A stretch of DNA of 64,000 nt from contig NZ_JAAQPI010000010.1 in the NCBI RefSeq assembly GCF_011683955.1, positions 1 to 64,000 on the forward strand, read 5' to 3'. The notes under the pieces were generated by a model. It did not search any database, was not told where the DNA came from, and saw nothing but the letters and a program-made list of their open reading frames with translations. The position numbers and the translations under genes were made by a program. This document shows, one piece after another, positions 2,667-51,331 of this stretch. Every line of letters starts with the position of its first letter. Position 1 is the stretch's first letter. The stretch is from Pseudomaricurvus alkylphenolicus. Its GTDB lineage: Bacteria; Pseudomonadota; Gammaproteobacteria; Pseudomonadales; Cellvibrionaceae.

Positions 2667-3677
2667 ATGATGCTCACACAGCCGCTGAGGAACACGGACA
2701 TAATCGAGGCCACGGGGGGCTGGATTCCCGAGGAGACGGTGCTGCTCAATGGCGAACTCTCCTGTGGCGGCAAGCTGCTGCGTATTTGCCCGGAGCTGGA
2801 CAAGCCTCATAACTATGTTGAGGCTTTTCAGCTGTCTGACGGCCTCTACTGCAGCGTCACCAACCTGTCCGAGGATGCCGACACAGAGGTGACTGTGGAC
2901 GGCACTGGGGTTCTGGGGCTGGCGGTCCAACTGCAGGGGGAATTTTATGAACCCGGTTCTGGCGTAAGGCTGACCAGTGCCAGGCAACCGGTCCAGACGA
3001 TGGCCTATGTCCCGGCTGGCACACAAATCACCGTGGGCTCCCAACTCGGGAAGGGGCTGAAGAGTGTCAGCATCTCTGCCCAAGCTGACTACCTGAGTCG
3101 TGCGCTGGGGTTGTCCAGCGACGAATTACCGGTACAACTGAGAGAATTCTTTACTGGATCGCTTGATCAGTTTGAACTAAAGCAAGTCAACGTGCCCATG
3201 GCTGCCATAGCCAGCGCCTCCAAGCTGCTGAATCATCCCGAAACAGGCGGTATGCGTTACCGCAACCTGACGCTTTTCGCCAATGAGTTGTTGCTGCATT
3301 TTCTGCAAGCCCTGTCGGAAGCTCCGCCGCAGGTAACCCGAGAACAGCGCCAACTGGCCAAAGTTCGAGAGATCATCGAGGCGAGCCCGGGGCAGCAGCA
3401 CACCCTGGATACGCTGGCCGACGCGGTGGGCTTGAGCCGCACGCGCCTGACGTCAGGCTTCAAGCGCCAGTACGGTGCCACGGTGATGGAATGGCTGCGT
3501 GAGACTCGCTTTAGGGAAGCCGAACGCCTGCTCAATACGACAGCGCTACCGCTTGCGGAGATCGCATTTGAGACTGGATTCAGCAGCCCTAGCAACTTCA
3601 CCAGTGCCTTTAAGAAGCGCTTCGGCGTCTCGCCCCGAGACAAGCGCCGTTTGTTGATAGCCGCCGCTGCGGGCTAG
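2667..3677 (+). CDS. AraC-family transcriptional regulator (locus 1)
   Basis: A 336-residue DNA-binding regulator. The last ~100 residues form the double helix-turn-helix of AraC/XylS proteins: HTH 1 around TLDTLADAVGLSRTRLTSGF and HTH 2 around PLAEIAFETGFSSPSNFTSA, ending in the typical FKKRFGVSP. The N-terminal ~220 residues lack a cupin signature that I can name; the overall plan is like PchR-type regulators that sit beside TonB receptor genes. It lies 214 bases upstream of, and codirectional with, a TonB receptor gene and most likely controls it. ATG codons at 2667 and 2670 are both possible. The effector is unknown. Confidence 0.9.
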   Translation: MMLTQPLRNTDIIEATGGWIPEETVLLNGELSCGGKLLRICPELDKPHNYVEAFQLSDGLYCSVTNLSEDADTEVTVDGTGVLGLAVQLQGEFYEPGSGVRLTSARQPVQTMAYVPAGTQITVGSQLGKGLKSVSISAQADYLSRALGLSSDELPVQLREFFTGSLDQFELKQVNVPMAAIASASKLLNHPETGGMRYRNLTLFANELLLHFLQALSEAPPQVTREQRQLAKVREIIEASPGQQHTLDTLADAVGLSRTRLTSGFKRQYGATVMEWLRETRFREAERLLNTTALPLAEIAFETGFSSPSNFTSAFKKRFGVSPRDKRRLLIAAAAG

Positions 3678-3891
3678 ATCTATTCTCTACTTTGCGCCTC
3701 TTTCATTATAGCTTTTGGTTATATTGGTGCTCGTTTTCCTCTTCCCCGCCTGCAAAATGGTCGCAGGTAACATTTTCCTGTCCGCTGCCAAAAGAATCCG
3801 CCGTCCAACCGCGATAGCCTGAACTCACCTTGAAAGAGCCAATCTGAACGGCTTCAACTATAACAAGAGTAGAACTACTGAGGAGTAGCTT

Positions 3892-6105
3892 ATGACAATC
3901 CGTCGGAGAGATGGTAACGGTCAGGCCAATATCGGGCGTGGTTTAGCGCTGCTGTCTGTACTGATCGCGGCGAACACGGCGAGTGCGCAGTCACAACAGG
4001 AAGAAGAATTTTTGCTTGAGGAAATTGTAGTCACCGCTTTGAGGCGCGCCGAGGGTACCAGCCTGATGGACACCTCCATCAGCATGGACGCCATGACCGG
4101 TGAAGATCTGGAAGCCAAGGGCGTTGGCTCGGTGATGGATGCCTTGTCCATGAGCCCGGGTGTTTCTGTGGCAAAATCCAGCGCCGTGGGTAACGCCGTA
4201 CAGATCCGAGGCGTGTCTGCCATTATTGGCGATGCGGTTGTGGGCTACTACATGGACGACCTTCCCTACACGCGCATTTCCGCCAATGTGGCGCCGGACA
4301 TGAATCCCTACGACCTCAACCGCGTTGAGGTCTTGCGCGGCCCTCAGGGTACACTTTTCGGGGCGGGTTCCCAGGGTGGTGTGGTAAGAATCATTACCCA
4401 GGACCCGATCATGAACCAGTTCGAAGGCAAGTTCACCGCGGGATACTCGGCTACTGGCGGTGGCAGCGACAGCCACAAGGTGCAGGGGGCGATCAATATT
4501 CCCCTGATTGAAGATACCCTGGCCATGCGCATTGTTGCCGCCCAAGTGGATTCCGGGGGATACATTGATCTGCCTTTGACGGGGGAGAATGACTTTAACG
4601 AACTGGATGATTCTTCTCACCGTGTCAAGCTGCTGTGGACGCCTACCGAGGAGTTGTCGATTACCGCGTCTTACTGGCATTCCGATCGCAATGGCCACGA
4701 AAACTGGGCCGAGGATGACCTCAAGGCTTATTACACCTTTACCAACTTCGACGCCGTGTTTGGATTGCCGGGGGCCACGGAGCTGACACAGCCGGTTGGC
4801 AGCGACAGTATGATCGCTGAAACCCGAAACGATCTCTATGGGCTCACGGTTGACTACGCCACCGACAGTTTTACCTTCGTCAGTACCACCTCGTACCTGG
4901 ATGGCGGCTACCGCAGCAGCCTGCCAATTCCGGCTGTGGGTGTTCGCTCCGCAAGAGAGTTTGAGGAGCTGGATACCTTCGCGCAGGAATTCAAACTGTC
5001 TTCCATCAATGAGGGCAGTTGGAACTGGACTGTTGGTGCTATCTATCTCGATATGGAAAATCGCGATGTCTCGATCTCCACACTGTTTGCTCAGGATCCG
5101 GCCAACTTTGCCATCCTGGCCGCATTTGGCGTCAACGAAAACACCGTCAGTGAACATGAACTCACCTCAAAGTCCTGGGCCGTATTTGGTGAATCTGTTC
5201 ATGAACTCGGCGATCAGTGGGAGTTGACTCTGGGGTTGCGCTACTTCGAAGACGAGCGCGAGGAGATTTCCCTGGATGGGAGCGGATACAAAGTTGACGG
5301 CTCCTGGGACCAATGGACCGGGCGAATCAACCTGGCCTGGCGCCCGGTGGAAGATTCCCTCTACTACATCAATATTGCCCAGGGCTTTCGTGCCGGTGGC
5401 CTGTTAGGTCCGCAGGCGATTGCCGATGCCGCCTCCCTCGGTGTTAACCTTCCGAGTCTGCTGGATCCCGATGAAGTCATCAGCTATGAAGTTGGCGGCA
5501 AGTGGACCCTGCTCAACGGGCGCCTGCAATTGGAATCTGCGATTTACCACCTTCAGTGGGACAGCATTCAAAGCTTTGTCACGGCGGTGACCCCACCACC
5601 GGAAAACCGGGCAACCGGATGGGCGGTCAATGGCAATGAAGCCAGTGGCACAGGTTTCGAATTCGGGGCGGCCTACCAGATCGAAGGCCTGGTGCTTTCG
5701 GCCTCAGGCAACTGGAGCAAGATGGAGTACGAAGGCAGCATTCCGGGTGCCGGCATTGAAGACGGCGCCACCATGATGCAGACGCCCGAGTTGACCTTGT
5801 CGGCGTCAGCATCCTATCACTGGCCCGTGGGTGAGTTTGAAGGAGTCGCTTTCCTGGGAGCCACCTACACCGACGAGCGCTCGGACTATTCTCCGCCGGA
5901 TCTGACCTACACATCGGATGCTTTCACATTGGTTAATGCCCGTGTGGGAGTAGTAGCAGAACATTGGTCGGTCTTTCTCACCGGTGAAAACATAACCGAC
6001 CAGAATCCGGAGGTCTCACAGTTGGCCGCGCTGATTCAATTTGGCGTGGATCCCGTGCGGATGCGCCCGGCCACCTACGGAGTTGAAGTCAACTACAAGT
6101 TCTAG
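3892..6105 (+). CDS. TonB-dependent outer-membrane receptor (locus 1)
   Basis: A 737-residue outer-membrane beta-barrel with periplasmic plug, driven by TonB-ExbBD. The N-terminus is a signal peptide (RRR, then a hydrophobic stretch, cleavage near TASA/QSQ). A TonB box EEIVVTA lies near residue 43. Plug-domain motifs include VQIRGVSAII, VEVLRGPQGTLFGAGSQGG and VRIITQDP. The C-terminus ends in aromatic Phe (EVNYKF), as expected for Bam-dependent assembly. It is strongly similar to the receptor at 24273-26492 (shared LLEEI, PYTRI, NPYDLNRVEVLRGPQGTLFG). No siderophore genes are near; ligase and esterase genes follow, so the substrate is more likely an organic acid or ester. The ribosome site is GAGGAG just before the ATG. 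Confidence 0.95.
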   Translation: MTIRRRDGNGQANIGRGLALLSVLIAANTASAQSQQEEEFLLEEIVVTALRRAEGTSLMDTSISMDAMTGEDLEAKGVGSVMDALSMSPGVSVAKSSAVGNAVQIRGVSAIIGDAVVGYYMDDLPYTRISANVAPDMNPYDLNRVEVLRGPQGTLFGAGSQGGVVRIITQDPIMNQFEGKFTAGYSATGGGSDSHKVQGAINIPLIEDTLAMRIVAAQVDSGGYIDLPLTGENDFNELDDSSHRVKLLWTPTEELSITASYWHSDRNGHENWAEDDLKAYYTFTNFDAVFGLPGATELTQPVGSDSMIAETRNDLYGLTVDYATDSFTFVSTTSYLDGGYRSSLPIPAVGVRSAREFEELDTFAQEFKLSSINEGSWNWTVGAIYLDMENRDVSISTLFAQDPANFAILAAFGVNENTVSEHELTSKSWAVFGESVHELGDQWELTLGLRYFEDEREEISLDGSGYKVDGSWDQWTGRINLAWRPVEDSLYYINIAQGFRAGGLLGPQAIADAASLGVNLPSLLDPDEVISYEVGGKWTLLNGRLQLESAIYHLQWDSIQSFVTAVTPPPENRATGWAVNGNEASGTGFEFGAAYQIEGLVLSASGNWSKMEYEGSIPGAGIEDGATMMQTPELTLSASASYHWPVGEFEGVAFLGATYTDERSDYSPPDLTYTSDAFTLVNARVGVVAEHWSVFLTGENITDQNPEVSQLAALIQFGVDPVRMRPATYGVEVNYKF

Positions 6106-6121
6106 CCTTTATGGTAGTCAG

Positions 6122-6164
6122 GGCAGCGAGACCAATGCTGATACGGGTCCGCTGCCTTTTTTTT
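6122..6164 (+). terminator. Intrinsic terminator after the locus 1 TonB receptor
   Basis: Stem GGCAGCG / CGCTGCC (6122-6128 with 6150-6156), extended inside by GACC / GGTC, followed immediately by eight T residues (6157-6164). This is a classical rho-independent terminator lying between the receptor stop at 6105 and the ligase start at 6186. It also argues against the longer ligase frame that begins at 6111. The equivalent junction in locus 2 has no such terminator. Confidence 0.85.
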
Positions 6165-6185
6165 CGCATGCAAAAGGTCAATACC

Positions 6186-7634
6186 ATGTCTGTTATCTCA
6201 TTTTCCCGCATCCTGGCTCACTGGGTGGAGATTCAACCCAACCAGGTTGCCATTGTTCACGAGGGCGACACAATTACCTGGTTGGCGCTGGAGGAGAGAA
6301 CCAACCAGCTGGCCCGCGCCTACGAAGACCTGGGTGTAAAGCAGGATGACTTTGTCACCATTGCGCTTCCCAACGGCATCGAATTTATCGCCGCATGCTT
6401 TGCCATCTGGAAGCTGGGTGCCACACCACAACCCATTTCCGCCAAGCTGCCAAAGATCGAGCGCGACGCCATCATTGAGTTGGCAAACCCGAGTCTGGTG
6501 GTGGGTGCCGTGGACGCCGATGCACGTTTTCCCTCCATTGCGGCACAATTCAGTCAATACGAAAACTATTCCACTGAACCGCTGCAAGAAAGAACGTCAA
6601 AAAATATCAAGGCGGTGACATCCGGCGGCAGCACAGGGCGCCCGAAACTGATTGTGATGCCGCAGCCGGCGGTTTGGGATCTGGATTTCACCTATTTTAT
6701 GATCCCTCATCAGTCATCCGTGTTGGTGCCGGGGCCGCTCTATCACAACGGGCCGTTTATGTGGGCGTTATGTGCCCTGTGCCAGGGTAACCGCACGGTT
6801 ATTGTGACTCGTTTTGATGCCGAAACTACACTGCAGTTGATCGAAGAAAATCGCATTGAAAATATGTACATGGTGCCCACCATGATGCAGCGCATCTGGA
6901 ACCTGCCAGATGAGTTGCGCCTGAAGTACGACCTGTCCTCGCTGAAGTCAGCGATACATATGGCGGCTCCTTGTCCCGCCTGGCTGAAAGAAGCCTTTAT
7001 CGAATGGCTCGGCCCCCAGGTAGTCTGGGAACTCTATGGTGGGGCGGAAGGCCAGGGCGGTACCACCATCACTGGCGAGGAGTGGCTGCAGCACCGAGGA
7101 TCGGTGGGCAAAGCCATTGAGGGGACGGAGATTCAAATCCTCGGTGACAGCGGTCAGCAACTGCCCCCGGGTGACATCGGTGAGATCTATATGCGCTTCA
7201 AGGAAAACGCGGGTTCCAGCTATGAATACATAGGCGCGGAAAGCAAAGAGATCGAAGGGGGCTGGGACAGCCTCGGGGATATGGGCTATCTGGACGAAGA
7301 TGGCTACCTGTATCTGGCCGACCGCCGTACCGACATGATTATCTGTGGCGGATCCAATATCTATCCCGCCGAAGTCGAAGCGGCAATCGATCAATTTCCA
7401 GGGGTTCGCTCTTCAGCGGTGATCGGTTTGCCTCACGAAGATCTGGGCAATGTGGTGCACGCTATTGTCGATGCCCCCGACGCTGCCATTACCGAGGACG
7501 ATATGTTGACCTTCCTGGCTGACCATTTGGTGCGCTATAAGCACCCCCGCTCTATCGAGTTCGTCAGCGAGCCGTTGCGCGATGATGCCGGCAAGGTTCG
7601 TCGAAAGGCACTGCGTGAAGCGCGAATCAATTAA
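6186..7634 (+). CDS. Acyl-CoA ligase, ANL superfamily (locus 1)
   Basis: 482 residues. The enzyme would activate a carboxylic acid via acyl-AMP to the CoA thioester. Adenylation core motifs: phosphate loop TSGGSTGRPK (145-154), YGGAEG (about 284-289, the A5 position), GDMGYLDEDGYLYLADRRTD with its Asp and Arg (A7/A8), then IICGGSNIYPAEVE, and GKVRRK with the A10 lysine near the end. The loop reads Gly-Gly-Ser-Thr rather than the usual Gly-Thr-Thr. I chose the ATG at 6186 because the paralogue at 26514 begins at the same point (SLSRILA against SFSRILA) and because a longer start would include the terminator hairpin. Substrate unknown. It is first in a long codirectional run reaching 14914. Confidence 0.93.
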   Translation: MSVISFSRILAHWVEIQPNQVAIVHEGDTITWLALEERTNQLARAYEDLGVKQDDFVTIALPNGIEFIAACFAIWKLGATPQPISAKLPKIERDAIIELANPSLVVGAVDADARFPSIAAQFSQYENYSTEPLQERTSKNIKAVTSGGSTGRPKLIVMPQPAVWDLDFTYFMIPHQSSVLVPGPLYHNGPFMWALCALCQGNRTVIVTRFDAETTLQLIEENRIENMYMVPTMMQRIWNLPDELRLKYDLSSLKSAIHMAAPCPAWLKEAFIEWLGPQVVWELYGGAEGQGGTTITGEEWLQHRGSVGKAIEGTEIQILGDSGQQLPPGDIGEIYMRFKENAGSSYEYIGAESKEIEGGWDSLGDMGYLDEDGYLYLADRRTDMIICGGSNIYPAEVEAAIDQFPGVRSSAVIGLPHEDLGNVVHAIVDAPDAAITEDDMLTFLADHLVRYKHPRSIEFVSEPLRDDAGKVRRKALREARIN

Positions 7635-7650: not shown

Positions 7651-9123
7651 ATGACACTGATCAATACTCGTCTTGGATCAGTCAAGGGCATCGAAAAAAA
7701 CAATGTCCAGAACTTTCTGGGCTTACCCTACGCCGCTGCGCCGGTTGGCAATCTGCGCTGGAAGTCCGCCCGGCCGGCTCCTGCCTGGCAGGGTACATTT
7801 GATGCCACCCGCTACCCCAATCGATGTGTGCAACCCCCTTATCCCGAAGACTTGATCGAGGGGGAAATTCCGGGCGAGCTGTCGGAAGATTGTCTCTACT
7901 TGAATGTGCATACACCCGCAGCGGATGACAAAAAGCGCCCGGTGGTCTGCTGGATTCATGGCGGCGGACTGATTCAGGGCAGCGCCAATGAATACGATGG
8001 CAGCATATTGGCACGACAGCAGGACTGTGTTGTTGTCGCCATCAACTATCGATTGGGTATTTTCGGTTTCTGCGATTTCAGCGCGCTGGGTGAGGAGTAT
8101 GCAGGCACGATCAGTCGCGGTTTCGAAGACCAGATAACGGCGCTTCGCTGGATACGTGACAATATCGCCGATTATGGCGGTGATCCCGATTGTGTCAGCA
8201 TCTGGGGCGAAAGCGGTGGTGGCGGTTCGGTGTTGGCCTTACAGGGGGCTCCGGCTGCGGAAGGTCTGTTCCACAGCTCCATCGCCTTCAGCCCCGGTGA
8301 TATCGAGCCGGGTAAGATGACGCCGATCAATGCGGCCAAAGTGCTGGCCGAACATCTGGATATCACCAGCGATCTGGAATCGCAACTGCTGGATATACCG
8401 CCAGCAGACCTGTTTGCGCATTTCCAGGAAGTGATTGTGCCCCTGGAACAAACGGCTGACAAATCGAAGACGGTTGACGGTACTATTATTACCCGATCTC
8501 CCCGCGACGCCATTGTCAGCAAGGGACCCGATGGACCTCCACTGTTGTCCGGAACCAACAAGGAAGAGGCGACTTACCTCAAATACCTGTGGGGTGATGA
8601 ACCCGGTTCTTCAGAGTTCCCGAAGAGCATCTTTGTTCCCCTGATCAATCAAACTGACCCTCAGGATTATCTCGCTTATCTAGACAGGCAGACCGAAGGC
8701 GCAACAGATGTCGATAAATCGGAGAAGATCTGGAACGATTGTTTTCGTTCGGCGGTGTTGAACAATGCTGAAGCGGCGACAAAGGCGGGAGCGGGCGGCT
8801 GGGTGTATAACTTCGAGGTGCCCACGGATAATCCCATGGGTATTACCCATGGCTGTGAGATCGCTTTTACCTTCAACATGTTCGAGCTGGAATCCTGTAA
8901 TTTGACGGCGTTTCACGAAAACACCGAAGAAAACCGGGCGCTGGCCAAACTCTGGGGATCTGTGCTGGTTGCATTTGTACGCAGTGCAAGCCCCAATGGC
9001 GAAGGACTTCCCGTCTGGCCGGCTTACGACGCCGGCAATCGCAGCTGCCTCGTGTTTGATCGTCAGCCGAATGTTGTGAGCGACCCGGATGGCGAAGACG
9101 CGAGAAAGGCCTACGGTTGTTGA
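7651..9123 (+). CDS. Type B carboxylesterase
   Basis: 490-residue serine esterase of the cholinesterase/type B family that hydrolyses carboxylic esters. Residues seen: oxyanion HGGG at 103-106, nucleophile elbow GESGG with Ser188, acid region GTNKEEATY near Glu305/306, and catalytic His400 in the ITHGCEIAF context. N-terminal family motifs FLGLPYAAAPVG and EDCLYLNVHTP are present. The elbow has Gly-Gly-Gly-Gly after the serine where Ala-Gly-Gly is usual. There is no signal peptide, so it should act in the cytosol after uptake. It starts 17 bases after the ligase stop with an AGGGG ribosome site, consistent with the same operon. The acid released could be the ligase substrate (inference). Confidence 0.93.
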   Translation: MTLINTRLGSVKGIEKNNVQNFLGLPYAAAPVGNLRWKSARPAPAWQGTFDATRYPNRCVQPPYPEDLIEGEIPGELSEDCLYLNVHTPAADDKKRPVVCWIHGGGLIQGSANEYDGSILARQQDCVVVAINYRLGIFGFCDFSALGEEYAGTISRGFEDQITALRWIRDNIADYGGDPDCVSIWGESGGGGSVLALQGAPAAEGLFHSSIAFSPGDIEPGKMTPINAAKVLAEHLDITSDLESQLLDIPPADLFAHFQEVIVPLEQTADKSKTVDGTIITRSPRDAIVSKGPDGPPLLSGTNKEEATYLKYLWGDEPGSSEFPKSIFVPLINQTDPQDYLAYLDRQTEGATDVDKSEKIWNDCFRSAVLNNAEAATKAGAGGWVYNFEVPTDNPMGITHGCEIAFTFNMFELESCNLTAFHENTEENRALAKLWGSVLVAFVRSASPNGEGLPVWPAYDAGNRSCLVFDRQPNVVSDPDGEDARKAYGC

Positions 9124-9152: not shown

Positions 9153-10022
9153 TTGCCGATAAACTCAAACCTTGTTGGAAAAAGTGCCGAGCCCGTAGAG
9201 CATCGAGTCGACGCTCGGGAGTTGATGGCTTACGCCGCCGGTATCAGCGATTTCAATCCCTGCTACTTTGATACTGACAAGATGACGGTATTGGCACACC
9301 CCATGTACTCGGTCTGCCTGGAGTGGCCTCTGGTGTCCAATCAGGCCGAGGTTGCGGGTATGGAGGAGTTTACCGCGGAGGAACGGCTGCGCGCTGTACA
9401 TGCCGCTCATGATATTCATTTTTTGCGCCCCATAAAGGCCGGTGATCGGTTGCAGACCCATTCGACCATGGCTGCTTTGGATCCCATCAAGCCGGGTGCA
9501 CTGGCGGTTTCGCGCCTGGATACGTTGGATGCCAACACCGGTGAATTGGTGTTGCGAACCTATCAAAGCGGTGTGTTTCGGGGTGTGGATATCATCGGTG
9601 AAACAACCAGCAGCGAAGAGATTCCCCCCTGGCCGCAGTTCTGTGACCCCTCAATGGACGGTATTGAAAAAACCATAGCCGTGTCGGCGGGCGCCGCCCA
9701 TGTTTACACCGAATGCACCAACATCTGGAATCCAATTCACACCGACAAAGCCGTAGCCTTGGCTTCGGGTTTGCCCGATCTGATTCTTCATGGCACGGCG
9801 ACCCTGTCCATGGCAGTTTCGTCCATTATCGATGAGTTTGCCGACGCCGACCCGACCCGAGTGACCCGTCTTGGCGGGCGGTTTACGGGCATGGTTTATA
9901 TGCCATCGATATTGACACTACAGGCAATTAAACACGGGAACGTCGTCTCCTTTCAGGTTAAGTCAGAAGAGGGCGGGGTTGCGATCAGCAACGGTTTCGT
10001 TTGTCTGACTGCTGGTAAATGA
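9153..10022 (+). CDS. MaoC-like double-hotdog dehydratase/hydratase
   Basis: 289 residues with two hotdog-fold halves, as in (R)-specific enoyl-CoA hydratases. The C-terminal half carries IWNPIHTD (191-198) with His196 and later LILHGTATL, both typical. The Asp usually five residues before that His is replaced by Ile191. The N-terminal half has ISDFNPCYFD (31-40), keeping an Asp-x-Asn-Pro but with Tyr in the His position. The complete Asp/His pair is therefore not present in either half. The start is TTG at 9153, supported by AAGGAG seven bases upstream and a frame that begins MPINSNLVGK. It sits directly before an SCP2-type thiolase, suggesting a side-chain beta-oxidation step. Confidence 0.85.
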   Translation: MPINSNLVGKSAEPVEHRVDARELMAYAAGISDFNPCYFDTDKMTVLAHPMYSVCLEWPLVSNQAEVAGMEEFTAEERLRAVHAAHDIHFLRPIKAGDRLQTHSTMAALDPIKPGALAVSRLDTLDANTGELVLRTYQSGVFRGVDIIGETTSSEEIPPWPQFCDPSMDGIEKTIAVSAGAAHVYTECTNIWNPIHTDKAVALASGLPDLILHGTATLSMAVSSIIDEFADADPTRVTRLGGRFTGMVYMPSILTLQAIKHGNVVSFQVKSEEGGVAISNGFVCLTAGK

Positions 10023-10078
10023 TCACAACAAATATTTGATAGCCGTAATTCTTCACACAATTTTAAGAGGTAAATTTG

Positions 10079-12571: not shown

Positions 12572-12707
12572 GAGAACTCGCCAATATTATCACCACCATT
12601 TGTATAGCCAGGGATAACACTATTCTGTCCTGCATCAGAAGTTTGGAAAAGCCGTGAGCGATAGACTGAAGGTTCGAGACACGGAAAATATTGTAATAGG
12701 AAGAGAG

Positions 12708-24076: not shown

Positions 24077-24161
24077 ATCCAGAGGTCATTCATATTTAAT
24101 CTTTCCGGTAGCCATGATCTACCCGGATCAAAGCTCAAAAACATCGTTCCTCATCAAAAAA

Positions 24162-24229: not shown

Positions 24230-24272
24230 CCATAGACGCTGACAACCGAATCTATCCGAGGAGAGCTTGATA

Positions 24273-42590: not shown

Positions 42591-42615
42591 GGTGCTGCAT
42601 AATTCAGGATTCAGC

Positions 42616-44241: not shown

Positions 44242-45278
44242 TATACACCGCTATTGTGCAACGGGCTCTGCTATGGGCAGCCGTGCTGGTAATGCTGTCG
44301 AATACATCCCAACTGGCAGCAGGAGAGCATCTTGCCTGTCGAGAGGACAGTCCCCTAAATACAGCTTCCGACTGCGTTACGCCAATTTCCACGCTGAAGG
44401 ACCCAGCGCGGAGACTCGAGATCAGCAAGCAAGCCCGTAAACGCTATTTGATTAATCTGATCGTCGATAATCGCAATGGCGATTATCGATGGGGGCCGGA
44501 GTCCAGCCGGGGGAAGGATGTTCCAAAAGGCACGGTCAAACAATACGAATGGAATACAAGCGGTATATTCCCAAATACACATAGAAATTACTGGGTATAC
44601 GTACCCGCTCAATATCGATCCGACGAGCCTGCGGCCCTGATGGTGTTTCAGGATGGCGATCGATTTTTGAATGAAACCAATATGCCAACGCTCGCCGTGA
44701 TGGAAAATCTTATCCACAAGGGTGAAATGCCGGTTACCATTGCGGTCTTCGTTGAACCCGGTCGACCTCAAGGTAATGTGCAAGCGACAACCATTCGCAG
44801 CAGCCAGCGCCAGATAGAATACGATAAGCAGAATGACCACTACGCGCGTTTGCTATTGGAGGAGATTCTCCCCGAGGTACGCCGCTCGTACAATATCAGC
44901 GATGATCCCCGGATGCGTGCCATAGGTGGAGCCAGTTCCGGGGCAATGGCCGCCTGGAATGTCGCCTGGCAACGGCCAGATGCGTTTGGCAATGTGGTCT
45001 CATTTATCGGCAGCTATACTGATATTCACGGGGGGCATAACGTCCCCATGAACGTGCGAAGACACCCCACCAAACCCATACGGGTATTTATGCAAAGCGG
45101 ACTCTATGATTTTCAGCTGGAGTTTGGGGACTGGGCGCTGGCCAATCAAAGCATGGCCTCCGCGCTTGCTTATGCCGGTTATGACTATCGTTTCGTCTTC
45201 GGTGATGGCGGCCATGACACACAACACGCGGCCGCAATATTGGCCGACGCATTTCGTTGGATCTGGAAAGCAAATTAG
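44238..45278 (+). CDS. Exported alpha/beta-fold esterase (enterochelin esterase-like)
   Basis: 346 residues. Starts GTG in a GTGA overlap with the amidohydrolase stop, so translation is coupled. Signal peptide to about residue 28 (LAAG). Esterase motif with Ser233 in GGASSGAMAAW, Asp region HGGHNVP/MQSGLYD and His in DGGHDTQH. Family members hydrolyse siderophore esters or feruloyl-type esters. Together with the amidohydrolase it makes a two-enzyme periplasmic hydrolysis step. Confidence 0.9.
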   Translation: MIYTAIVQRALLWAAVLVMLSNTSQLAAGEHLACREDSPLNTASDCVTPISTLKDPARRLEISKQARKRYLINLIVDNRNGDYRWGPESSRGKDVPKGTVKQYEWNTSGIFPNTHRNYWVYVPAQYRSDEPAALMVFQDGDRFLNETNMPTLAVMENLIHKGEMPVTIAVFVEPGRPQGNVQATTIRSSQRQIEYDKQNDHYARLLLEEILPEVRRSYNISDDPRMRAIGGASSGAMAAWNVAWQRPDAFGNVVSFIGSYTDIHGGHNVPMNVRRHPTKPIRVFMQSGLYDFQLEFGDWALANQSMASALAYAGYDYRFVFGDGGHDTQHAAAILADAFRWIWKAN

Positions 45279-45293: not shown

Positions 45294-46139
45294 ATGAACA
45301 TTGTCCAAGACAGCCAGGTTACAAAACGGGAGCTGATCGTCTTTTTCCTGCTCACGTTCAGCGTATCTACTGCGGCTGTGTTCCTGTCCGGTCCCATGAT
45401 AGAACAGGGCGTGGGTGACCAGATAGCGGCGTCGTGGTACAAAGAAAAAGCGCTGATCATCATCTGGATACCCATGCTGTCGGCACTGGTCACCGCTCTT
45501 TGTTTCCGTGGCAAACAGGGACTGTCCACGATCTTGAAGAGACTGCTGGTCTGGAAGGTGGGTTATCGTTGGTGGGCAGTTGCGTTGTTGTTGCCGATTG
45601 CAATGGTCGTTATCCCCGCAATGCTACAGGGCAAGCTGATTACTACCAATATCGGTGAACTTATTTTCATCTTTATTCAGAACTTCATGTTTATCGGTGT
45701 AATCATGATCGGAGAAGAGCTGGGTTGGCGAGGTTATGCGCTGCCAGCCCTTCAGGCTCACTTTACGCCTTTAAAAGCTTCCCTTCTTTTGGGATTCTTG
45801 TGGGGAGTCTGGCACTATCCGGTTTGGTACGGTCGGGCATTTGGCGGTGATGGCAGTACCGAAGCCATAATCATTATGCTCGCAGGCAGTACATTGATGA
45901 CGCTGGCACTGGCGTTGATATTTACGTGGCTGGCAAACCATACACAGGCAGCCATCCTGATTGCAATGGTGATGCACGGCGCCAATAACGCTTCCTTACG
46001 ACTGCTGAATGAGGAGTTTAACTTCGGAGTCTGGGTCATGGTCCTCATGGTGGTTGCGGCGGTGATTGTTGTATTGAATAGAAACATGTTTATCTCCAAA
46101 CCCGAAGGATTCCAGGTTACCTCGCAAGCATTGGGATGA
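45294..46139 (+). CDS. CPBP-family intramembrane protease
   Basis: 281 residues with about eight hydrophobic segments. The three CPBP (Abi/Rce1) motifs are present: Glu141-Glu142-x3-Arg146 (GEELGWRGYALP), His174 in FLWGVWHYP and His228-x3-Asn in MVMHGANN. Family members cleave prenylated or bacteriocin-like peptides or have no known substrate. It lies 15 bases after the esterase gene. Its role in a catabolic operon is unclear. A more distant CPBP gene is at 59850. Confidence 0.9.
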   Translation: MNIVQDSQVTKRELIVFFLLTFSVSTAAVFLSGPMIEQGVGDQIAASWYKEKALIIIWIPMLSALVTALCFRGKQGLSTILKRLLVWKVGYRWWAVALLLPIAMVVIPAMLQGKLITTNIGELIFIFIQNFMFIGVIMIGEELGWRGYALPALQAHFTPLKASLLLGFLWGVWHYPVWYGRAFGGDGSTEAIIIMLAGSTLMTLALALIFTWLANHTQAAILIAMVMHGANNASLRLLNEEFNFGVWVMVLMVVAAVIVVLNRNMFISKPEGFQVTSQALG

Positions 46140-46142: not shown

Positions 46143-47156
46143 ATGATATACCGACTGGTTAGTATCCTGGTTGGCATTGCAGTGGTATTCGCTGTTGCGT
46201 TCTGGCTGGTGACCACCACAACCACCGATCCAGCTCTGGATCCCAATTGGCAAATTCAGGCAGCCAACTACGGCGGTGACAAAGAAGCTGTTACGGTACG
46301 ATTTACCGGCACATCGACCCTTCTATTCGACGATGGAGAAACCCGCTGGATGACGGATGGCTGGTTTACCCGTTTAAGCTGGCTGCAACTGCTGGGTGAT
46401 TTCGAGCCGGATCTGGCGGCCATAGAAGCTGGTCTGAAGGCCAACAATGTCGACAGTATGGAGGCGGTGATCCCCTTGCATTCACACTTTGATCACGCTA
46501 TGGACTCGGCCGCAGTTGCGGAGAGAACAGATGCGTTGCTGATGGGAACCCATTCCACGGCTAATCTGGGTCGTGGTTGGGGTTTGCCCGAATTTCGCAT
46601 CAAAGTGATGAACAGTCGTGAAGAAATTCCATTGGGGAAATTTACCATTACCCCGATATTATCCAAACACTATGAATTCCCAGGATCCGTTACTGGTAAC
46701 ACGGTTGAGACCATTGATGAACCGGTGGGCTCGCCCACGAATCTGGCCGCGTATAAAGAGGGAGGTTCCTGGGCTCTGCACGTGAGTCATCCTCGGGGCA
46801 GCTGGTTGATTATCGGGAGTGCCGGCTATATAGAGGGTGGGCTCGATGATTACAAGGCGGACACTGTTTTTTTGGGTATCGGTGGCTTGGGTGGACAAAC
46901 GCAAGAATACCGGGAACAGTACTGGCATGAGAGTGTTGAGACCGTTGGTGCCAAGCGCGTTATTCCCATTCACTGGGACTGCCTTGTATGCTCATTGAAC
47001 GAACCTTTTGAAGGACAAACTCTGTTCTTTCGCTACCTTTTTGAGCAAGATTTCTTGCTGCAGGCTGACAAAAAGTTGTTGCAGTTCCTTAAGACAAAAG
47101 AGGCCGATGTAGAATTCATAACTCTGCCTCGTTTTGATCCAGTGAAACTTTGGTAG
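46143..47156 (+). CDS. Membrane-anchored metallo-beta-lactamase-fold hydrolase
   Basis: 337 residues. N-terminal hydrophobic anchor or uncleaved leader (about 4-24) without a lipobox Cys. Metal-binding His113-x-His115-x-Asp117-His118 (LHSHFDH), and a later His in IPIHWDC. Probably periplasmic, facing the same compartment as the amidohydrolase and esterase. Starts three bases after the CPBP stop. Substrate may be a lactone or ester; not decided by sequence. Confidence 0.88.
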   Translation: MIYRLVSILVGIAVVFAVAFWLVTTTTTDPALDPNWQIQAANYGGDKEAVTVRFTGTSTLLFDDGETRWMTDGWFTRLSWLQLLGDFEPDLAAIEAGLKANNVDSMEAVIPLHSHFDHAMDSAAVAERTDALLMGTHSTANLGRGWGLPEFRIKVMNSREEIPLGKFTITPILSKHYEFPGSVTGNTVETIDEPVGSPTNLAAYKEGGSWALHVSHPRGSWLIIGSAGYIEGGLDDYKADTVFLGIGGLGGQTQEYREQYWHESVETVGAKRVIPIHWDCLVCSLNEPFEGQTLFFRYLFEQDFLLQADKKLLQFLKTKEADVEFITLPRFDPVKLW

Positions 47157-47208: not shown

Positions 47209-48528
47209 ATGTCAAAACAATTTACATCGACCCATTCAAACTATGATAAGTCGGGGTACAAGCATTATGTTCTTTTTATGCTCTTCCTGGTTTACATGTT
47301 CAACTTTGTGGACCGCCAGCTGCTGGTGATATTACAGGAGTCAATCAAGCAGGATCTTGGATTTTCGGATACTCAACTGGGTATGATGTCAGGCTTTGCG
47401 TTTGCCCTGCTGTACGTCTCCTTTGGTATTCCAATCGCACGAATGGCAGACCGCGGCAATCGTCGCAACATTGTTGCCTTGTCGTTAGGTATATGGAGCC
47501 TGATGACGGCGATATGTGGACTCAGTTACAGCTTTATACAAATGTTGCTGGCGCGCATGGGGGTTGCGGTGGGTGAAGCCGGGGGTGGACCTCCGGCCCT
47601 CTCGATGATTTCCGACTTATATTCAGAGAAGAATCGTGCCACAGCGATGTCCATCTATTCTTCGGGAATCTATGCGGGACTGATTGCCGGTTACGTATTT
47701 GGAGGCTGGCTGGGTGACACCTATGGTTGGCGCACGGCGTTTATCGTTATTGGTCTTCCGGGAGTACTGCTGGCCGCATTGCTCATGTACACGGTTGAAG
47801 AGCCCGCCAGATATAGACCAAATGGAGAAATTCAGGATACAGGTAAAAAACAGGAGCCATTCATTGAGACATTGCGAATGCTGTGGAATATCACTGCATT
47901 CCGCTATATCGCCATCGCCGGCGGCTTGTCGTGCTTTTCAAGCTATGGGATTGGCAATTGGATGCCATCCTACCTGCTTCGAAGTTTTGAGGTATCAACA
48001 GCTGAGGTAGGGTTATGGATGGGGCTGACTGCTGGCGTTGGTGGTCTGCTGGGTACTTTTGGAGGTGGAGTACTGGTCGATAAGCTGAAAACCAGCGACA
48101 AACGCTGGTATATCTGGCTGCCGGCGATTGCCATGCTGGGTACGATTCCGGTCGGGATGGTTATACTGACGACAAATAACGAAAATCTGGCGATCGCGCT
48201 CAATGGCTTAACGGTTTTGCTGTTTGCCACGTGGCTGGCACCCATCATTGCACTCAGTCATGAATTGGTGGGCCCGGAGAGAAGGGCCCAGGCGACGGCT
48301 GTTCTGTTTTTTCTAATCAATATCATTGGCATGGGGATGGGACCCGCGTCAGTAGGCATTCTGAGCGATGCAATGACCTCCGCCGAGGGGGTAGATTCCT
48401 TGAGTTACGCCATGATGGCCGCCCTGGTGTTTGGTGGTGGGTTCGGAGGATATTGCTTTTTGATCGCAGGTCGTAGTCTCGTTTGTGAAGTAAGCACTAC
48501 ACGGTATCAAATTTCACTAAACCAATAA
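47209..48528 (+). CDS. MFS transporter
   Basis: 439 residues with twelve predicted membrane helices. The N-half shows the NFVDRQLLVILQESIKQDLG start and loop 2-3 GIPIARMADRGNRRN (MFS motif A). VGEAGGGPPALSMISDLYSEKNRATA is typical of the spinster/hexuronate-like group often found beside TonB receptors. It would move the periplasmic hydrolysis product across the inner membrane. Last gene of the locus 3 run; ends eight bases before the opposing AraC gene. Confidence 0.92.
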   Translation: MSKQFTSTHSNYDKSGYKHYVLFMLFLVYMFNFVDRQLLVILQESIKQDLGFSDTQLGMMSGFAFALLYVSFGIPIARMADRGNRRNIVALSLGIWSLMTAICGLSYSFIQMLLARMGVAVGEAGGGPPALSMISDLYSEKNRATAMSIYSSGIYAGLIAGYVFGGWLGDTYGWRTAFIVIGLPGVLLAALLMYTVEEPARYRPNGEIQDTGKKQEPFIETLRMLWNITAFRYIAIAGGLSCFSSYGIGNWMPSYLLRSFEVSTAEVGLWMGLTAGVGGLLGTFGGGVLVDKLKTSDKRWYIWLPAIAMLGTIPVGMVILTTNNENLAIALNGLTVLLFATWLAPIIALSHELVGPERRAQATAVLFFLINIIGMGMGPASVGILSDAMTSAEGVDSLSYAMMAALVFGGGFGGYCFLIAGRSLVCEVSTTRYQISLNQ

Positions 48529-48535: not shown

Positions 48536-49621
48536 CTATCTGTCTTTGGTCGGTGCCGAACCAAAGTAGCGCCGATACGCGGCGCTAAACGAGTTAACCT
48601 CCAGGTAATTCAGTTTATCGGATATTTCTGACACGCTGAGTTTGCCAAGCGAAATTTGTTCCCTGGCCCAGTTCATCCTGAGTTTTGTTTGCAGTTGATT
48701 GACAGTGGTGCCATAAAGCAGCTTGAAACCGTAGTGAAGCTTGTTACGATTGATATTGGCGGTTTTGGCGAGTTCATCGATAGTCTGTGGCTGGCAAAAG
48801 GAATCGCATACGTGCCGATAGAGACTCTCAATGCTGTCTATATCCTGGTCCGACAACCTGAATCTGTTTTTCGGCGTCGCCTCGGGTTTTTCGGAATTGA
48901 ACCAGTCTTCGAACAGCAAATAGAGCAGCTCCAGGCCTTTCGACTGCACAAGGATGTCGGAAAACAGGTTTTGGGAGATATTCATCAATAGATCATGGGC
49001 TATAGAAATCGTTTTGTCTGAAGCAACAAAGTGCCCATGGTCGTGAGGCAACGTAGAGTCTCGAAAAGCTTGTATCCGTCCGGGAAGTTGATCGATCCTG
49101 GCCGCTAATAAATCCATCAGCCTCTCGATCGAAATATACATCGCGATAAGTTCCATTTCCGGCTCACCGCCATAGCTGACCGTAAACATCTCCCCCGGCT
49201 TGACCAGTTGGAAGCTGCAGAGGGGCGCTTTTACGCCTGCTATGCACTGATCGTCGTAAATCTGATTCAAGGCTCCCTTGAACATCAATCGGATGGCAAT
49301 AATATTACCGGTAGATCGGCCGCCAAACGTAATGGCTTTTGAGTGATTGCTGTTGATATAGGAAATGACAATTCCCGCTGAAAGTTCTTTTAATCCACGC
49401 TCACTGTCATCAATAAGAACTTCAGAGCTTTCATTAATGCTGTCGAAGTTTTCAGGCCTGGCTTCCAGCAGTCCATCACTCAGACAGTAGAAGCTGTCCC
49501 CTCCAGAAACGGCGGGCAACGTCGACACCAGTTGCTCCATATTCTTCTTATTATTGCCTCGCTTACCCATGAGATCTACTTCCATCTGGATTGCAGTGAT
49601 AAATGGCCAACGGGTGTACAA
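48536..49621 (-). CDS. AraC-family regulator divergent from ligase 3
   Basis: 361 residues. HTH pair: TIDELAKTANINRNKLHYGF and SVSEISDKLNYLEVNSFSAA, ending RRYFGSAP. It belongs to the same broad PchR-like group as 2667 and 22940 (for example AMYISIERLMDLLAAR in the centre). Divergent from the ligase/thiolase/SDR run over 165 bases; no obvious operator there. Confidence 0.9.
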   Translation of the reverse strand: MYTRWPFITAIQMEVDLMGKRGNNKKNMEQLVSTLPAVSGGDSFYCLSDGLLEARPENFDSINESSEVLIDDSERGLKELSAGIVISYINSNHSKAITFGGRSTGNIIAIRLMFKGALNQIYDDQCIAGVKAPLCSFQLVKPGEMFTVSYGGEPEMELIAMYISIERLMDLLAARIDQLPGRIQAFRDSTLPHDHGHFVASDKTISIAHDLLMNISQNLFSDILVQSKGLELLYLLFEDWFNSEKPEATPKNRFRLSDQDIDSIESLYRHVCDSFCQPQTIDELAKTANINRNKLHYGFKLLYGTTVNQLQTKLRMNWAREQISLGKLSVSEISDKLNYLEVNSFSAAYRRYFGSAPTKDR

Positions 49622-49786
49622 AGTACCCGGTCTGACTAAATGTATGTGTGCGGATCTAAATAGTGAAAGTGATCATCTCATTATCGGCGTCTGTTTGTAA
49701 AACAGTAAAATCCTCTATGTCCGTAGTGGGGTTTCAATCCCATATCGCTCAATTTCCAGCTAACAGGCGTTCTAAAGGCATCAGAC

Positions 49787-51331
49787 ATGACTCAATTAAT
49801 CGAAAGCAATTTTGAGCTCCCTTTTGTTCACGTGGCCAGACAAGTCGCCATCCATGGGAAGTTCAAGCCAGAAGGGATAGCTTTTATCGAGGGGGATCGT
49901 GAAGTTACCTGGAAGCAATATGATCAAGAGGGTGACAAGATTGCCCATGCTCTTATGTCAGCCGGTATTCAGAAGGGCGACCGGGTGGCGATTTTGGTGG
50001 GAAACAGCCTGTGGGCTCACGAATTGATCCTGGGGATCTGGCGTGCAGGCGCGGCAGTGGTGCCCCTGTCACCACTGCTAACGGCAGAAGTGCTTAAGAA
50101 CATGCTGATTGACTCCGGGGCTCGCTATATGTTCGCGGATTCAAACTACTTTACCCTGGCGGAATACGCAGTGGAATCGCTCTCAATTCCTTTGTCTGGC
50201 CCATCATTTGAACTGCCATCGAGTAATCAGGAAGTGGCCAAGACGACACAGCCGGATATCAAGAAAGAGGACCTGGCAGTGATCATATATTCCTCAGGTA
50301 CCACTGGAACACCCAAAGGTATTGCCCACACCCATGAATCAAGACAGAACTTTGCCAAGTTGGCGCTAGCTCTGCTGACTTGTCATCAGGACTCAGTATG
50401 CTTGTCCATCATCCCGCCGCATTCCAACGGAGCCTGGTTGAGTTGGTTGCCGGCAAAGTTGATTGGCGCAACGACGGTTATCATGTCGCAATTTGACCCG
50501 GACCGGTTTCTGGAGGTGGTTCGCAGGCACCGACCAACCTACGGTTTTCTGGTGCCGGCTATCTGTGCGGTATTGTTGGAGCACCCAGAGATAGAGTCAG
50601 CAGGACTCGACTGTTTCGAATGCGCGATTACCGCCGGCGCACCGATGATGGCGCCAATGAAAAAAGAGATGCAGCGTCTGACCAATGGCGGACTCTACGA
50701 ACTGTGGGGGCTGACAGAAGGCATTGCAACCGCCATTACGCCAGAAGAGATGCGGGAGCGCCCGGCTTCGGTAGGACGTCCATTGACGGGCTGCGAGATT
50801 CGACTGATCAACGAAAACGATGAAGATGTTACCTGCCGCGGTACTGGAGAGATCGTCGGCTATTCTGAAGGCATGATGAGTGGCTATTGGAACCGCCCGC
50901 AAGACAACGAGGCACTGGTGTGGACGGATAAAGAAGGCCAGGTGTTTATACGCACCGGCGACATCGGCGAAATTGACGAAGCTGGATATTTGACCCTGCG
51001 CGGACGCTCCAAGGATATGATCATCAGCGGTGGACTCAATGTCTTCCCCATCGACATAGAAACGACAATTCAGCGCCATGAAGATGTGAGGGACGTTGCC
51101 GTTACCGGAGTCCCCCACGAAAAATGGGGAGAAACCCCAATCGCGTTTATCGTTGCCAAAAAGGGCATTCAGATTGATCCCCTGACGATGAAATCCTGGG
51201 CCAACGAACGACTGTCCAAGACACAGCGTATCAATGATGTGGTGGTACTCAGCCACGACCTGCCCCGCAACACTCTGGGCAAGGTGTTAAAGACCGAGCT
51301 CAAAGCCGATTACCTCGCAAACCATTCATAA
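49787..51331 (+). CDS. Acyl-CoA ligase (ANL), third copy
   Basis: 514 residues with canonical motifs: IIYSSGTTGTPKGIAHTH (loop), YELWGLTEG (A5), TGDIGEIDEAGYLTLRGRSK (A7/A8), ISGGLNVFPIDIE, and PRNTLGKVLK with the terminal Lys. It is a different subfamily from the two SGGSTG-loop ligases. It heads the run ligase - SCP2 thiolase - SDR and should activate the acid entering this branch. Confidence 0.93.
   Translation: MTQLIESNFELPFVHVARQVAIHGKFKPEGIAFIEGDREVTWKQYDQEGDKIAHALMSAGIQKGDRVAILVGNSLWAHELILGIWRAGAAVVPLSPLLTAEVLKNMLIDSGARYMFADSNYFTLAEYAVESLSIPLSGPSFELPSSNQEVAKTTQPDIKKEDLAVIIYSSGTTGTPKGIAHTHESRQNFAKLALALLTCHQDSVCLSIIPPHSNGAWLSWLPAKLIGATTVIMSQFDPDRFLEVVRRHRPTYGFLVPAICAVLLEHPEIESAGLDCFECAITAGAPMMAPMKKEMQRLTNGGLYELWGLTEGIATAITPEEMRERPASVGRPLTGCEIRLINENDEDVTCRGTGEIVGYSEGMMSGYWNRPQDNEALVWTDKEGQVFIRTGDIGEIDEAGYLTLRGRSKDMIISGGLNVFPIDIETTIQRHEDVRDVAVTGVPHEKWGETPIAFIVAKKGIQIDPLTMKSWANERLSKTQRINDVVVLSHDLPRNTLGKVLKTELKADYLANHS

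Follow-up and report, generated by a model that had tools for sequence, protein, structure and literature searches.

We analyzed a 64,000-nucleotide stretch of Pseudomaricurvus alkylphenolicus DNA (here, the window) in which genes for AraC-family regulators, TonB-dependent receptors, ANL adenylating ligases and hydrolases recur side by side. This arrangement raises the question of whether such groups form dedicated systems for the uptake and CoA activation of esterified hydrophobic acids, as suggested by an original prediction made from the sequence alone.

Four AraC-associated gene groups in the window

All genes described here are on the forward strand except where noted. Locus 1 begins with AraC-family regulator 1 (2667..3677), which has a Pfam HTH_18 domain and an N-terminal half lacking a Pfam match. 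It is followed by TonB-dependent receptor 1 (3892..6105; signal-like N terminus) and, starting 5 bp past the receptor gene, ANL ligase 1 (6111..7634; SGGSTG P-loop). Further downstream are a carboxylesterase (7651..9123; Pfam COesterase, no signal-like N terminus), a MaoC-type hydratase with two Pfam dehydratase-domain matches (9153..10022), and an SCP2-type thiolase (10076..11260) matching the NCBIfam "lipid-transfer protein" model PRK08256 (NF006102). The next two genes encode U208-1, a membrane protein without a family match (11284..11910), and its tandem paralogue U208-2 (11945..12571; 60% identity); the predicted U208 structure is of low confidence, and a structure search gave no match at E 0.001. 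Two Pfam-supported hydrolases follow, i.e., an alpha/beta hydrolase (12654..13499) and an HSL-type alpha/beta hydrolase (Abhydrolase_3; 13973..14914). Receptor 1 also contains a hydrophobic EIVVTA stretch, which we read as a TonB box.

Locus 2 has the same order of regulator, receptor, ligase and hydrolase. It comprises AraC-family regulator 2 (22940..24034; HTH_18), TonB-dependent receptor 2 (24267..26492), ANL ligase 2 (26493..27989; SGGSTG P-loop), which directly abuts the receptor gene, and an alpha/beta hydrolase (28032..28919; Pfam) with a 53% identical counterpart in another unit of the genome, C18. Downstream are an SDR of the 3-ketoacyl reductase type (29060..29818; PRK08217, above cut-off) and two acyl-CoA dehydrogenases, of which the first (29837..30958) has no middle-domain match and weakly resembles IpdE2, and the second (31012..32235) is by position its partner. 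With receptors that are 62% and ligases that are 70% identical, loci 1 and 2 are old paralogues, and their likeness is therefore partly due to descent. AraC proteins 1 and 2 match at the HTH end alone (42% over 103 aa). Based on a hydropathy heuristic, the hydrolases of both loci are without a signal-like N terminus, and neither locus has an obvious inner-membrane importer.

In locus 3, a divergent AraC-family regulator gene (38877..39917, reverse strand; Pfam) precedes TonB-dependent receptor 3 (40382..42514), which falls outside the clade of receptors 1 and 2. Next come an amidohydrolase (42592..44241; Pfam) and a PF00756 esterase (44238..45278), both with a signal-like N terminus by the same heuristic, a CAAX/Rce1-like membrane protease family protein (45294..46139; Pfam), a metallo-beta-lactamase-like protein slightly below the Pfam cut-off (46143..47156) and an MFS transporter (47209..48528; Pfam); this locus contains no ligase gene. 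Locus 4, which has no receptor gene, consists of a divergent AraC-family regulator (48536..49621, reverse strand; Pfam), ANL ligase 3 (49787..51331; SSGTTG, 25% identity to ligase 1) and an SCP2-type thiolase (51373..52548) with 59% identity to that of locus 1. The thiolases of loci 1 and 4 score 608.7 and 631.5 bits, respectively, against the PRK08256 cut-off of 436.

Receptors 1 to 3 have the plug (PF07715) and barrel (PF00593) domains of TonB-dependent receptors above the Pfam cut-off, ligases 1 to 3 have the AMP-binding and C-terminal domains together with the P-loop of ANL adenylating enzymes, and the regulators have the HTH_18 domain of AraC proteins. The four groups are accordingly present as originally described, including the third, with its apparently exported hydrolases and MFS transporter, and the fourth, with regulator, ligase and thiolase.

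A receptor clade is linked to ligase genes in this genome

The 8.9-Mb genome encodes about 189 receptors and 77 ANL proteins. Receptors 1 and 2 belong to a clade of eight members that are 41 to 77% identical. All eight are followed on the same strand, within 3 kb, by an ANL (acyl-CoA-ligase-type) gene, as are 6 of the 181 other receptors (Fisher P = 8.6e-11, with the 3-kb same-strand-downstream rule set after inspection of the receptor-ligase pair list). The ligases of these units come from six unrelated lineages. In six of the eight units, the receptor has an AraC gene no more than 6 kb away, and in five no more than 700 bp away. Among the nine loci of clade and outer members outside the window, seven have an AraC gene nearby compared to 0 of 20 random receptors (P = 2.3e-5, using window-derived labels; 2 of 20 controls with a broader AraC profile), and seven have a ligase gene compared to 2 of 20 (P = 7e-4). 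C11_269, one of three outer members, lacks a ligase gene within 6 kb, and C11_333, another of them, has one only beyond 3 kb. Beta-oxidation labels, partly taken from the units themselves, occur near 9 of the 11 units.

Hydrolase labels, also partly derived from the units, were found near 11 of 11 units and 6 of 20 controls; with window-only labels, this enrichment was gone (4/9 versus 5/20, P = 0.4). Hydrolase-type ORFs account for 17 of 48 ORFs in the units versus at least 7 of 83 control ORFs (25 families listed), counts that were obtained by differing methods; the 83 ORFs neighboring control receptors include four AMP-binding and four COesterase genes. M81/MlrC-family, serine-beta-lactamase-family, S9, S15, M14, M24 and amidase genes (Pfam) are present in or near clade units or outer members. 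M81 has four copies here; of 37 other relatives searched, one had it.

Considering all receptors, coupling to ligase genes is modest under a shift null, which gives weaker genome-wide adjacency than a Poisson expectation. Within 2 kb, there are 19 pairs on any strand (null 15.1 ± 3.2) and 15 on the same strand (8.6 ± 2.6), and within 5 kb there are 30 on the same strand (15.4 ± 3.4). Same-strand ANL genes lie downstream of the receptor in 14 pairs and upstream in 7; on the opposite strand, the numbers are 4 and 2. With the pairing seen in 8 of 8 clade receptors versus 6 of 181 others, the proposed coupling of receptor and ligase is stronger here than chance would give. The SGGSTG loop, which had been put forward as part of the signature, does not mark the units. 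It is indeed uncommon here, occurring in 3 of the 30 ANL genes that best match ligases 1 and 2, i.e., in these two and their nearest relative, and it tracks one ligase clade; ligases of other units have TSGTTG, TGGTTG, SGGTTG, TSGSTG or SSGTTG.

AraC and receptor diverge together and the ligase is exchanged

Locus 2 and the C18 unit have receptors that are 71% and AraC proteins that are 77% identical, while their ligases are 18% identical. Similarly, units C68 and C11_416 share 74% identity in the receptor and 26% in the ligase, and conversely, C18 and C11_296 have 77% identical ligases and 35% identical receptors. Distances between receptors correlate with those between AraC proteins (Mantel r = 0.62, P = 0.0035, n = 9); for receptors and ligases, the values are r = 0.21 and P = 0.09 (n = 10). 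The promoters of receptor 2 and the C18 receptor share a block (24156..24230, forward strand), a candidate AraC operator, with an alignment score of 109 versus a maximum of 50.5 in 200 shuffles. Its 25-bp core (24162-24186) has two sites in all in the genome at ≤3 mismatches, and the reversed control has none. Among seven promoter pairs compared, this pair and C11_257-C11_305 scored above their own shuffles; the remaining five had no shared block exceeding shuffles. Judged from these comparisons, the AraC-receptor pair is inherited together, diverging jointly, with the ligase swapped.

Among solved structures, the nearest sequence relative of ligases 1 and 2 is BaiB (4lgc; 279 bits for ligase 2, with the next match at 199, and 269 bits for ligase 1). 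Both remain under the cut-off of the BaiB model NF038344 (355.6 and 358.6 versus 650 bits), and the resemblances to BaiB, BaiCD and IpdE2 are each far below the NCBIfam cut-off. A BaiB-specific structure was considered and dropped: the model is of moderate quality (pLDDT 79), and the fold search places many other ANL enzymes above BaiB and also matches DhbE, PchD and EntE-type ligases.

Occurrence in other genomes

Relatives of the SGGSTG-ligase clade were present in 5 of 292 other genomes of the order and in 0 of 368 other genomes drawn from the class. The originally proposed check, co-occurrence of an AraC gene, a receptor gene and an SGGSTG-clade ligase gene within 5 kb in other genomes, came out negative at all five relative loci (0/5). 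Divergent receptors can escape BLAST labeling, as in one case where Pfam recovered a receptor that the labels had missed; a rescan of the five loci with profiles left the outcome unchanged. L071 is the locus nearest to the triad, its ligase gene being flanked by a receptor gene at a distance of 6.3 kb and, on the opposite side, by an AraC gene at 5 kb. The one large unlabelled ORF close to an AraC gene, also in L071, is sulfatase-like. In two other loci, the ligase relative lies beside Rieske and BVMO-type genes (L070) and beside an IpdE2-like dehydrogenase pair (L072).

A receptor-profile search of the order covered at most three candidates per genome (E 1e-150). In one genome of the order, an ANL gene lies downstream of 5 of 49 receptors on the same strand (0.63 expected), one of the five being a 1,536-aa NRPS-like ORF; a second genome, G032, showed no excess (1 of 47, 0.54 expected). 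Scanning contigs of other genomes with receptors 1 and 2 and narrow patterns gave no match. A wider scan with eight receptors returned 44 loci, with 34% identity for the best-scoring locus and best-segment identities up to 37%. The best-scoring locus (L076, from a Henriciella MAG) has the order AraC-receptor-SCP2 thiolase. Four of the 44 loci contain an ANL gene, which is directly 3′ of the matched receptor in L111, about 7 kb away in L115, and of NRPS size beside a different receptor in L105 and L113.

A model for the clade units and its alternatives

We propose that this genome has about eight catabolic units in which a receptor of a single clade is joined by a ligase, loci 1 and 2 among them, and that the clade units are inducible loci importing bulky carboxylates or their esters or amides, hydrolyzing them and charging the acids to CoA for beta-oxidation; we assign this explanation as a whole a probability of roughly 0.6. 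In this scheme, the AraC protein would sense the substrate and switch on the receptor promoter, in locus 2 possibly via the candidate operator block. The TonB-energized receptor would carry a bulky carboxylic acid, or its ester or amide, across the outer membrane; the hydrolase, presumably cytoplasmic in loci 1 and 2, would release the acid; and the ligase would form the CoA thioester, trapping the substrate. The thioester would then enter side-chain beta-oxidation by the MaoC hydratase, acyl-CoA dehydrogenase, SDR and SCP2-type thiolase. Esterified hydrophobic acids, as originally suggested, fit the gene content of the loci. For the substrate of loci 1 and 2, our preferred guess, at clearly less than even odds, is a polycyclic acid of terpenoid or steroid-like type; 9,10-seco steroid ring-opening enzymes (KstD, KshA, TesB type) were not seen among the annotated genes of the window.

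AraC-receptor pairs are a classic layout of siderophore loci. A system for siderophore or cofactor uptake, in which the ANL gene would encode an aryl-acid adenylating enzyme, would account for this layout, for the matches of the fold search to DhbE, PchD and EntE-type ligases, for the weak enterochelin-esterase likeness of a locus 3 protein (66 bits versus a cut-off of 222), and for the iron and siderophore receptors that are the best solved matches of the clade profile. The best NCBIfam match of receptor 1 is likewise a siderophore-receptor model (TIGR01783), at 155.8 bits and under the cut-off of 223.5. Also, a SAR86 study that reports BaiB homologues as well reads the TonB transporters of that order as siderophore importers (PMC11582366). 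However, the neighboring genes encode beta-oxidation enzymes and hydrolases, no NRPS is among the annotated genes of the window, and ligase 2 is closer in sequence to BaiB (279 bits) than to DhbE (117 bits). Moreover, the window, receptor promoters included, contains 0 Fur-box matches at ≤3 mismatches to the consensus and no Rfam match, which speaks against a B12 or siderophore reading. We consider iron or cofactor acquisition the least probable of the alternatives, and quite improbable.

A degradation-rich genome might also simply juxtapose its many receptor and ANL genes by chance or within shared catabolic islands, in keeping with the any-strand count within 2 kb, which is not clearly over the shift null, and with the hydrolases and ligases near control receptors. 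Against this, and making it unlikely, are the pairing in 8/8 clade receptors versus 6/181 others, the six unrelated ligase lineages and the same-strand downstream bias (14 versus 7). About equally unlikely is that the acids are linked by amide or peptide bonds rather than esters, such that some clade units break down conjugated natural products, lipopeptide-like or of another kind. The peptidase- and amidase-type genes in or near clade or outer units and the four M81 copies argue for this idea, whereas loci 1 and 2 have hydrolases of the esterase type and the M81 protein is far under the MlrC cut-off (185 versus 999). Import and CoA activation of bulky carboxylates is the reading that we favor.

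Relation to known systems and implications

Polysaccharide utilization loci (PULs) combine a regulator, a TonB receptor and dedicated hydrolases in many parallel copies. The comparison to PULs made originally holds for this layout, with a CoA ligase here in place of sugar-processing enzymes; it does not extend to SusC-SusD and CAZymes, as the annotated genes of the window include no SusD family member and no glycoside-hydrolase set, and one 3-keto-disaccharide hydrolase. Our proposal draws on gene clusters already known to combine uptake with degradation, and we found no description of the receptor-ligase arrangement in the open-access literature searched.

Among such clusters, as far as the accessible portions of the reports describe them, the bsd I cluster of Caenibius tardaugens, which is induced by cholate, resembles our units in its kinds of genes: a transporter-related gene, a regulator, an amidohydrolase, a dehydrogenase pair, a CoA ligase, MaoC and an alpha/beta hydrolase (PMC12882949). 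It and its Sphingobium Chol11 counterpart, which act on the cholate side chain (PMC12882949, PMC8399759), share the dehydrogenase alpha/beta pair with locus 2; the transporter-related and regulator genes are part of the bsd I cluster itself, and receptors encoded elsewhere are cholate induced. In contrast to our loci, bsd I has a TetR regulator and, in that portion, no ligase-swapping family, and the type of its transporter gene EGO55_16295 (TonB receptor, ABC or MFS) is left unspecified. In Novosphingobium tardaugens, the same species, the edc cluster includes a TonB receptor gene, edcT, alongside MaoC and acyl-CoA dehydrogenase genes in an operon that degrades a bulky, hydrophobic compound, and deletion slows growth on estradiol (PMC7793797); this case differs in concerning one receptor in an alphaproteobacterium. 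The ddvT/ddvK/ddvR system of Sphingobium SYK-6 similarly has a substrate-specific carbon-source receptor co-regulated with a catabolic gene, but its regulator is of the MarR type, its substrate is an aromatic dimer, and the text available mentions no CoA ligase (PMC6874591). TonB transporters of S. fuliginis were assigned to "lipid transport" by gene context (PMC7142613), on the view that receptors encoded among lipid-metabolism genes would transport such compounds; this is a review-level prediction that, in the part seen, ties no receptor clade to ligases.

It is conceivable, if still the less probable case, that this lineage has a modular platform for uptake and activation, comparable to PULs but based on acyl-CoA and directed at conjugated natural-product acids. 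Here, an AraC-receptor cassette would have been amplified in one genome and its copies joined by recombination to ligases, and hydrolases, from different lineages, the substrate range growing by ligase swap. A review on bile acids notes that little is known so far about how degraders take up these compounds (PMC8399759). If the receptor family predicts its CoA-activating partner, it would provide a handle for genome mining, in that the ligase can be assayed in vitro and its substrate would name the cargo of the receptor, and ligase swapping may serve as a natural experiment on substrate change in uptake loci.

Organization of the four loci

The P. alkylphenolicus genome comprises 8.88 Mb in 70 contigs, and the window is part of contig 1. 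The four gene groups claimed in the original prediction are all present as described in the gene annotation of the window. In locus 1 (AraC gene, 2667-3677; TonB receptor 1, 3892-6105; SGGSTG-loop ligase 1, 6111-7634; carboxylesterase, 7651-9123), 5 bp separate the receptor stop from the ligase start and 16 bp separate ligase and carboxylesterase, while in locus 2 (AraC2, 22940-24034; receptor 2, 24267-26492; ligase 2, 26493-27989; alpha/beta hydrolase, 28032-28919), receptor and ligase abut with a gap of 0. Given this tight packing, each gene set reads like a single transcript. The two loci are paralogues, with 65-70% DNA identity over the receptor and ligase stretch and protein identities of 62% (receptors) and 70% (ligases); their AraC proteins have only the DNA-binding end in common (23% identity overall). 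Ligase 3 of locus 4 is a different ANL (acyl-CoA-ligase-type) enzyme with 25% identity to ligase 1, and the SCP2-type thiolases of loci 1 and 4 are 59% identical to each other. By a heuristic, a signal-like N terminus is present on the hydrolases of locus 3 and on none of those of loci 1 and 2; a conjugate, if any, would thus be cut inside the cell at loci 1 and 2.

The window also contains two tandem 208-aa membrane proteins (11284-12571; 60% identical), for which we found no Pfam match for either and no NCBIfam match for the first. A relative occurs in 1 of 292 other genomes of the order (G199, 43% identical). Structure modeling gave a low-quality model (pLDDT 62), for which no PDB match at E 0.001 was obtained. 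At 52563-55647, an SDR frame looks split, with matches to an SDR N-terminal half at 52563-53015 and to a C-terminal half at 55114-55647. The intervening stretch carries portions of the AraC/thiolase-start block at 14978-16925 as a diverged second copy (68-75% DNA identity), in which the thiolase is cut after about 261 residues.

A receptor clade with downstream CoA ligases

Searching the same genome with a profile built from receptors 1 and 2 identified six further strong relatives, giving a clade of eight with 41-77% pairwise identity; three outer receptors have 31-40% identity to these eight. Neighborhood ORFs were labeled by BLAST against the Pfam-annotated proteins of the window and, later, also against Pfam-annotated neighbors. 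All eight clade receptors have a same-strand downstream ANL gene, which directly follows the receptor gene in loci 1 and 2 and in the unit at 257 kb of contig C11, while one or two ORFs intervene in the other five. After merging, at least about 189 TonB-dependent receptors (from searches in which 116 and 150 candidates were scored) and 77 ANL genes are counted in this genome among the matches listed; the genomes of five other species of the genus are 4.0-5.7 Mb. Using a rule of 3 kb, same-strand and downstream, which was chosen after the pair list had been seen, an ANL gene follows 8/8 clade receptors versus 6/181 others (Fisher P 8.6e-11, with paralogues being non-independent).

As controls, we used 20 random receptors from 143 eligible in this genome, and compared them with nine units, omitting the two window units and using window-only labels. 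A downstream ligase was present in 7 of the 9 units versus 2 of the 20 controls (P 7e-4), with both control matches side by side on C11. The same comparison gave 7/9 versus 0/20 for AraC (P 2.3e-5) and 8/9 versus 1/20 for AraC of any type; by profiles, 2 of 20 controls had AraC within 6 kb. Hydrolases were not enriched with these labels (4/9 versus 5/20, P 0.4). A hydrolase count of 11/11 units versus 6/20 controls is biased, as labels came partly from the units, and was not relied on. In a Pfam census of 83 control neighbor ORFs, esterases, amidohydrolases, and AMP-binding enzymes were common near receptors generally.

Genome-wide, there is a moderate same-strand receptor-ligase excess. Under circular shifts, for which the lengths of some contigs were approximated, 30 same-strand pairs within 5 kb compare with 15.4 +/- 3.4 expected (maximum of 1000 shifts, 28), 15 within 2 kb with 8.6 +/- 2.6, and 19 within 2 kb on any strand with 15.1 +/- 3.2. 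In G027 and G032, two other genomes, a downstream ANL gene follows 5/49 receptors (expected 0.63; one is an NRPS-like 1,536-aa ORF) and 1/47 (expected 0.54), respectively.

Ligases are exchanged behind related receptors

Pairwise identity tables of receptor, AraC, and ligase for 11 units place the eight clade ligases in six lineages with mutual identity of no more than 33%. The locus 2 unit and the unit on C18 have receptors 71%, AraC proteins 77%, and ligases 18% identical, and units C68_163 and C11_416 have 74% identical receptors and 26% identical ligases. The closest pair, C11_257 and C11_305 (receptors 77%), keeps the ligase at 74%, and loci 1 and 2 likewise keep a related ligase. Conversely, the C18 and C11_296 ligases are 77% identical with receptors at 35%. 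Receptor distances correlate with AraC distances (r 0.62, P 0.0035, n=9) and not clearly with ligase distances (r 0.21, P 0.09, n=10), which argues that the receptor-AraC pair is the module that is inherited, with repeated recruitment of ligases behind it. The tables also answer the non-independence of paralogues in the 8/8 test. This swapping is the strongest argument for receptor and CoA activation acting in one function.

Upstream of receptor 2 and the C18 receptor, we identified an alignable block (score 109; maximum of 200 shuffles, 50.5). The promoters of C11_257 and C11_305 (AraC 57%) scored 64.5 versus 43.5 in shuffles, and none of the other five promoter pairs compared scored above shuffles. 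The receptor 1 promoter, with its unrelated AraC, had nothing in common with either the receptor 2 or C18 receptor promoter. A 25-bp core at 24162-24186 has two sites in 8.9 Mb, namely these two promoters, while the reversed core as control had no match in this genome; we read it as a candidate operator of the AraC2 type.

The SGGSTG-ligase triad in other genomes

One relative of the SGGSTG ligases was found when this genome and 37 related ones were searched (38 in total; E 1e-120), and matches were found in five genomes besides this one among 293 of the order (E 1e-150); in a class draw of 369 genomes, only this genome matched. In the five neighborhoods (L068-L072; ligases 49-61% identical to ligase 2), none has an AraC-receptor-ligase unit within 5 kb, and rescanning with receptor, ANL, and AraC profiles left this unchanged. 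Thus, the predicted triad is not conserved. L071 comes closest: its receptor lies 6.3 kb to one side of the ligase and its AraC gene 5 kb to the other, with three ORFs between AraC and ligase (one sulfatase-like, one alpha/beta hydrolase, one small). This one-strand series (L071:689-16677; G274, same order) may represent a loosely organized catabolic cluster acting on a sulfated compound. Despite the missing triad, L070 (Rieske protein, two BVMO-type proteins, CoA transferase) and L072 (IpdE2-like dehydrogenase pair) are still informative as gene contexts, all matches being below NCBIfam cut-offs.

The receptor clade itself is likely absent from other genomes: the order search covered the best three or fewer candidates per genome, and in a GTDB scan with two short peptide patterns, the best-scoring match had 34% identity, with the best segments reaching 37%. 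A distant analogue of locus 1 occurs in a Henriciella MAG (L076): AraC, a receptor (34%), and an SCP2-type thiolase are accompanied by acyl-CoA dehydrogenase genes and an MFS gene, and the retrieved part of this locus contains no ligase.

Function and precedents

The families of the receptor, ANL enzyme, regulator, and beta-oxidation enzymes are established. We infer that the units import, hydrolyze, and CoA-activate bulky carboxylates. The nearest solved sequence relative of the ligases is BaiB. Near locus 2 there is an OYE-type reductase similar to BaiCD and mycofactocin-type OYEs, and the locus 2 dehydrogenase pair is similar to IpdE-type enzymes. Since all three resemblances are below family cut-offs, a polycyclic acid as the substrate of loci 1 and 2 is only a lead. 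Other clade units lie near acyclic-terpene genes (AtuA, carboxylase) or M81, S9, M14, and beta-lactamase-family hydrolase genes, and the clade as a whole therefore probably serves several substrate classes.

AtuA-type genes lie near three receptor units (L043, L044, and L052), beside carboxyltransferase and/or biotin-carboxylase-like genes. The genome has four M81 (MlrC-family) metallopeptidase genes, including those at C6:70312-72641, at C11:161157, and in L047 (C11:406000-424000), the last with a beta-lactamase-family hydrolase inside a receptor-ligase unit; among the 37 other relatives covered, M81 genes were found in 1.

Receptors for bulky carbon sources have precedents in EdcT, for estradiol (PMC7793797), and DdvT, for a lignin dimer (PMC6874591). 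SAR86 genomes are described as having BaiB homologues and many TonB transporters, the latter interpreted by the authors as siderophore importers (PMC11582366). The nearest functional likeness is to the bsd I cluster of Caenibius tardaugens, which is induced by cholate; its description gives a transporter-related gene of unstated type, a TetR regulator, an amidohydrolase, a monooxygenase, a dehydrogenase pair, the CoA ligase SclA, MaoC, and an alpha/beta hydrolase, and reports its hydrolases as being without secretion signals (PMC12882949).

The idea of a PUL-like uptake-and-activation system survives in changed form, as a clade of receptors whose CoA ligases are exchangeable, in place of a conserved triad. 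Receptor-linked catabolic loci were already known; the surprising aspect is repeated ligase exchange inside one genome.
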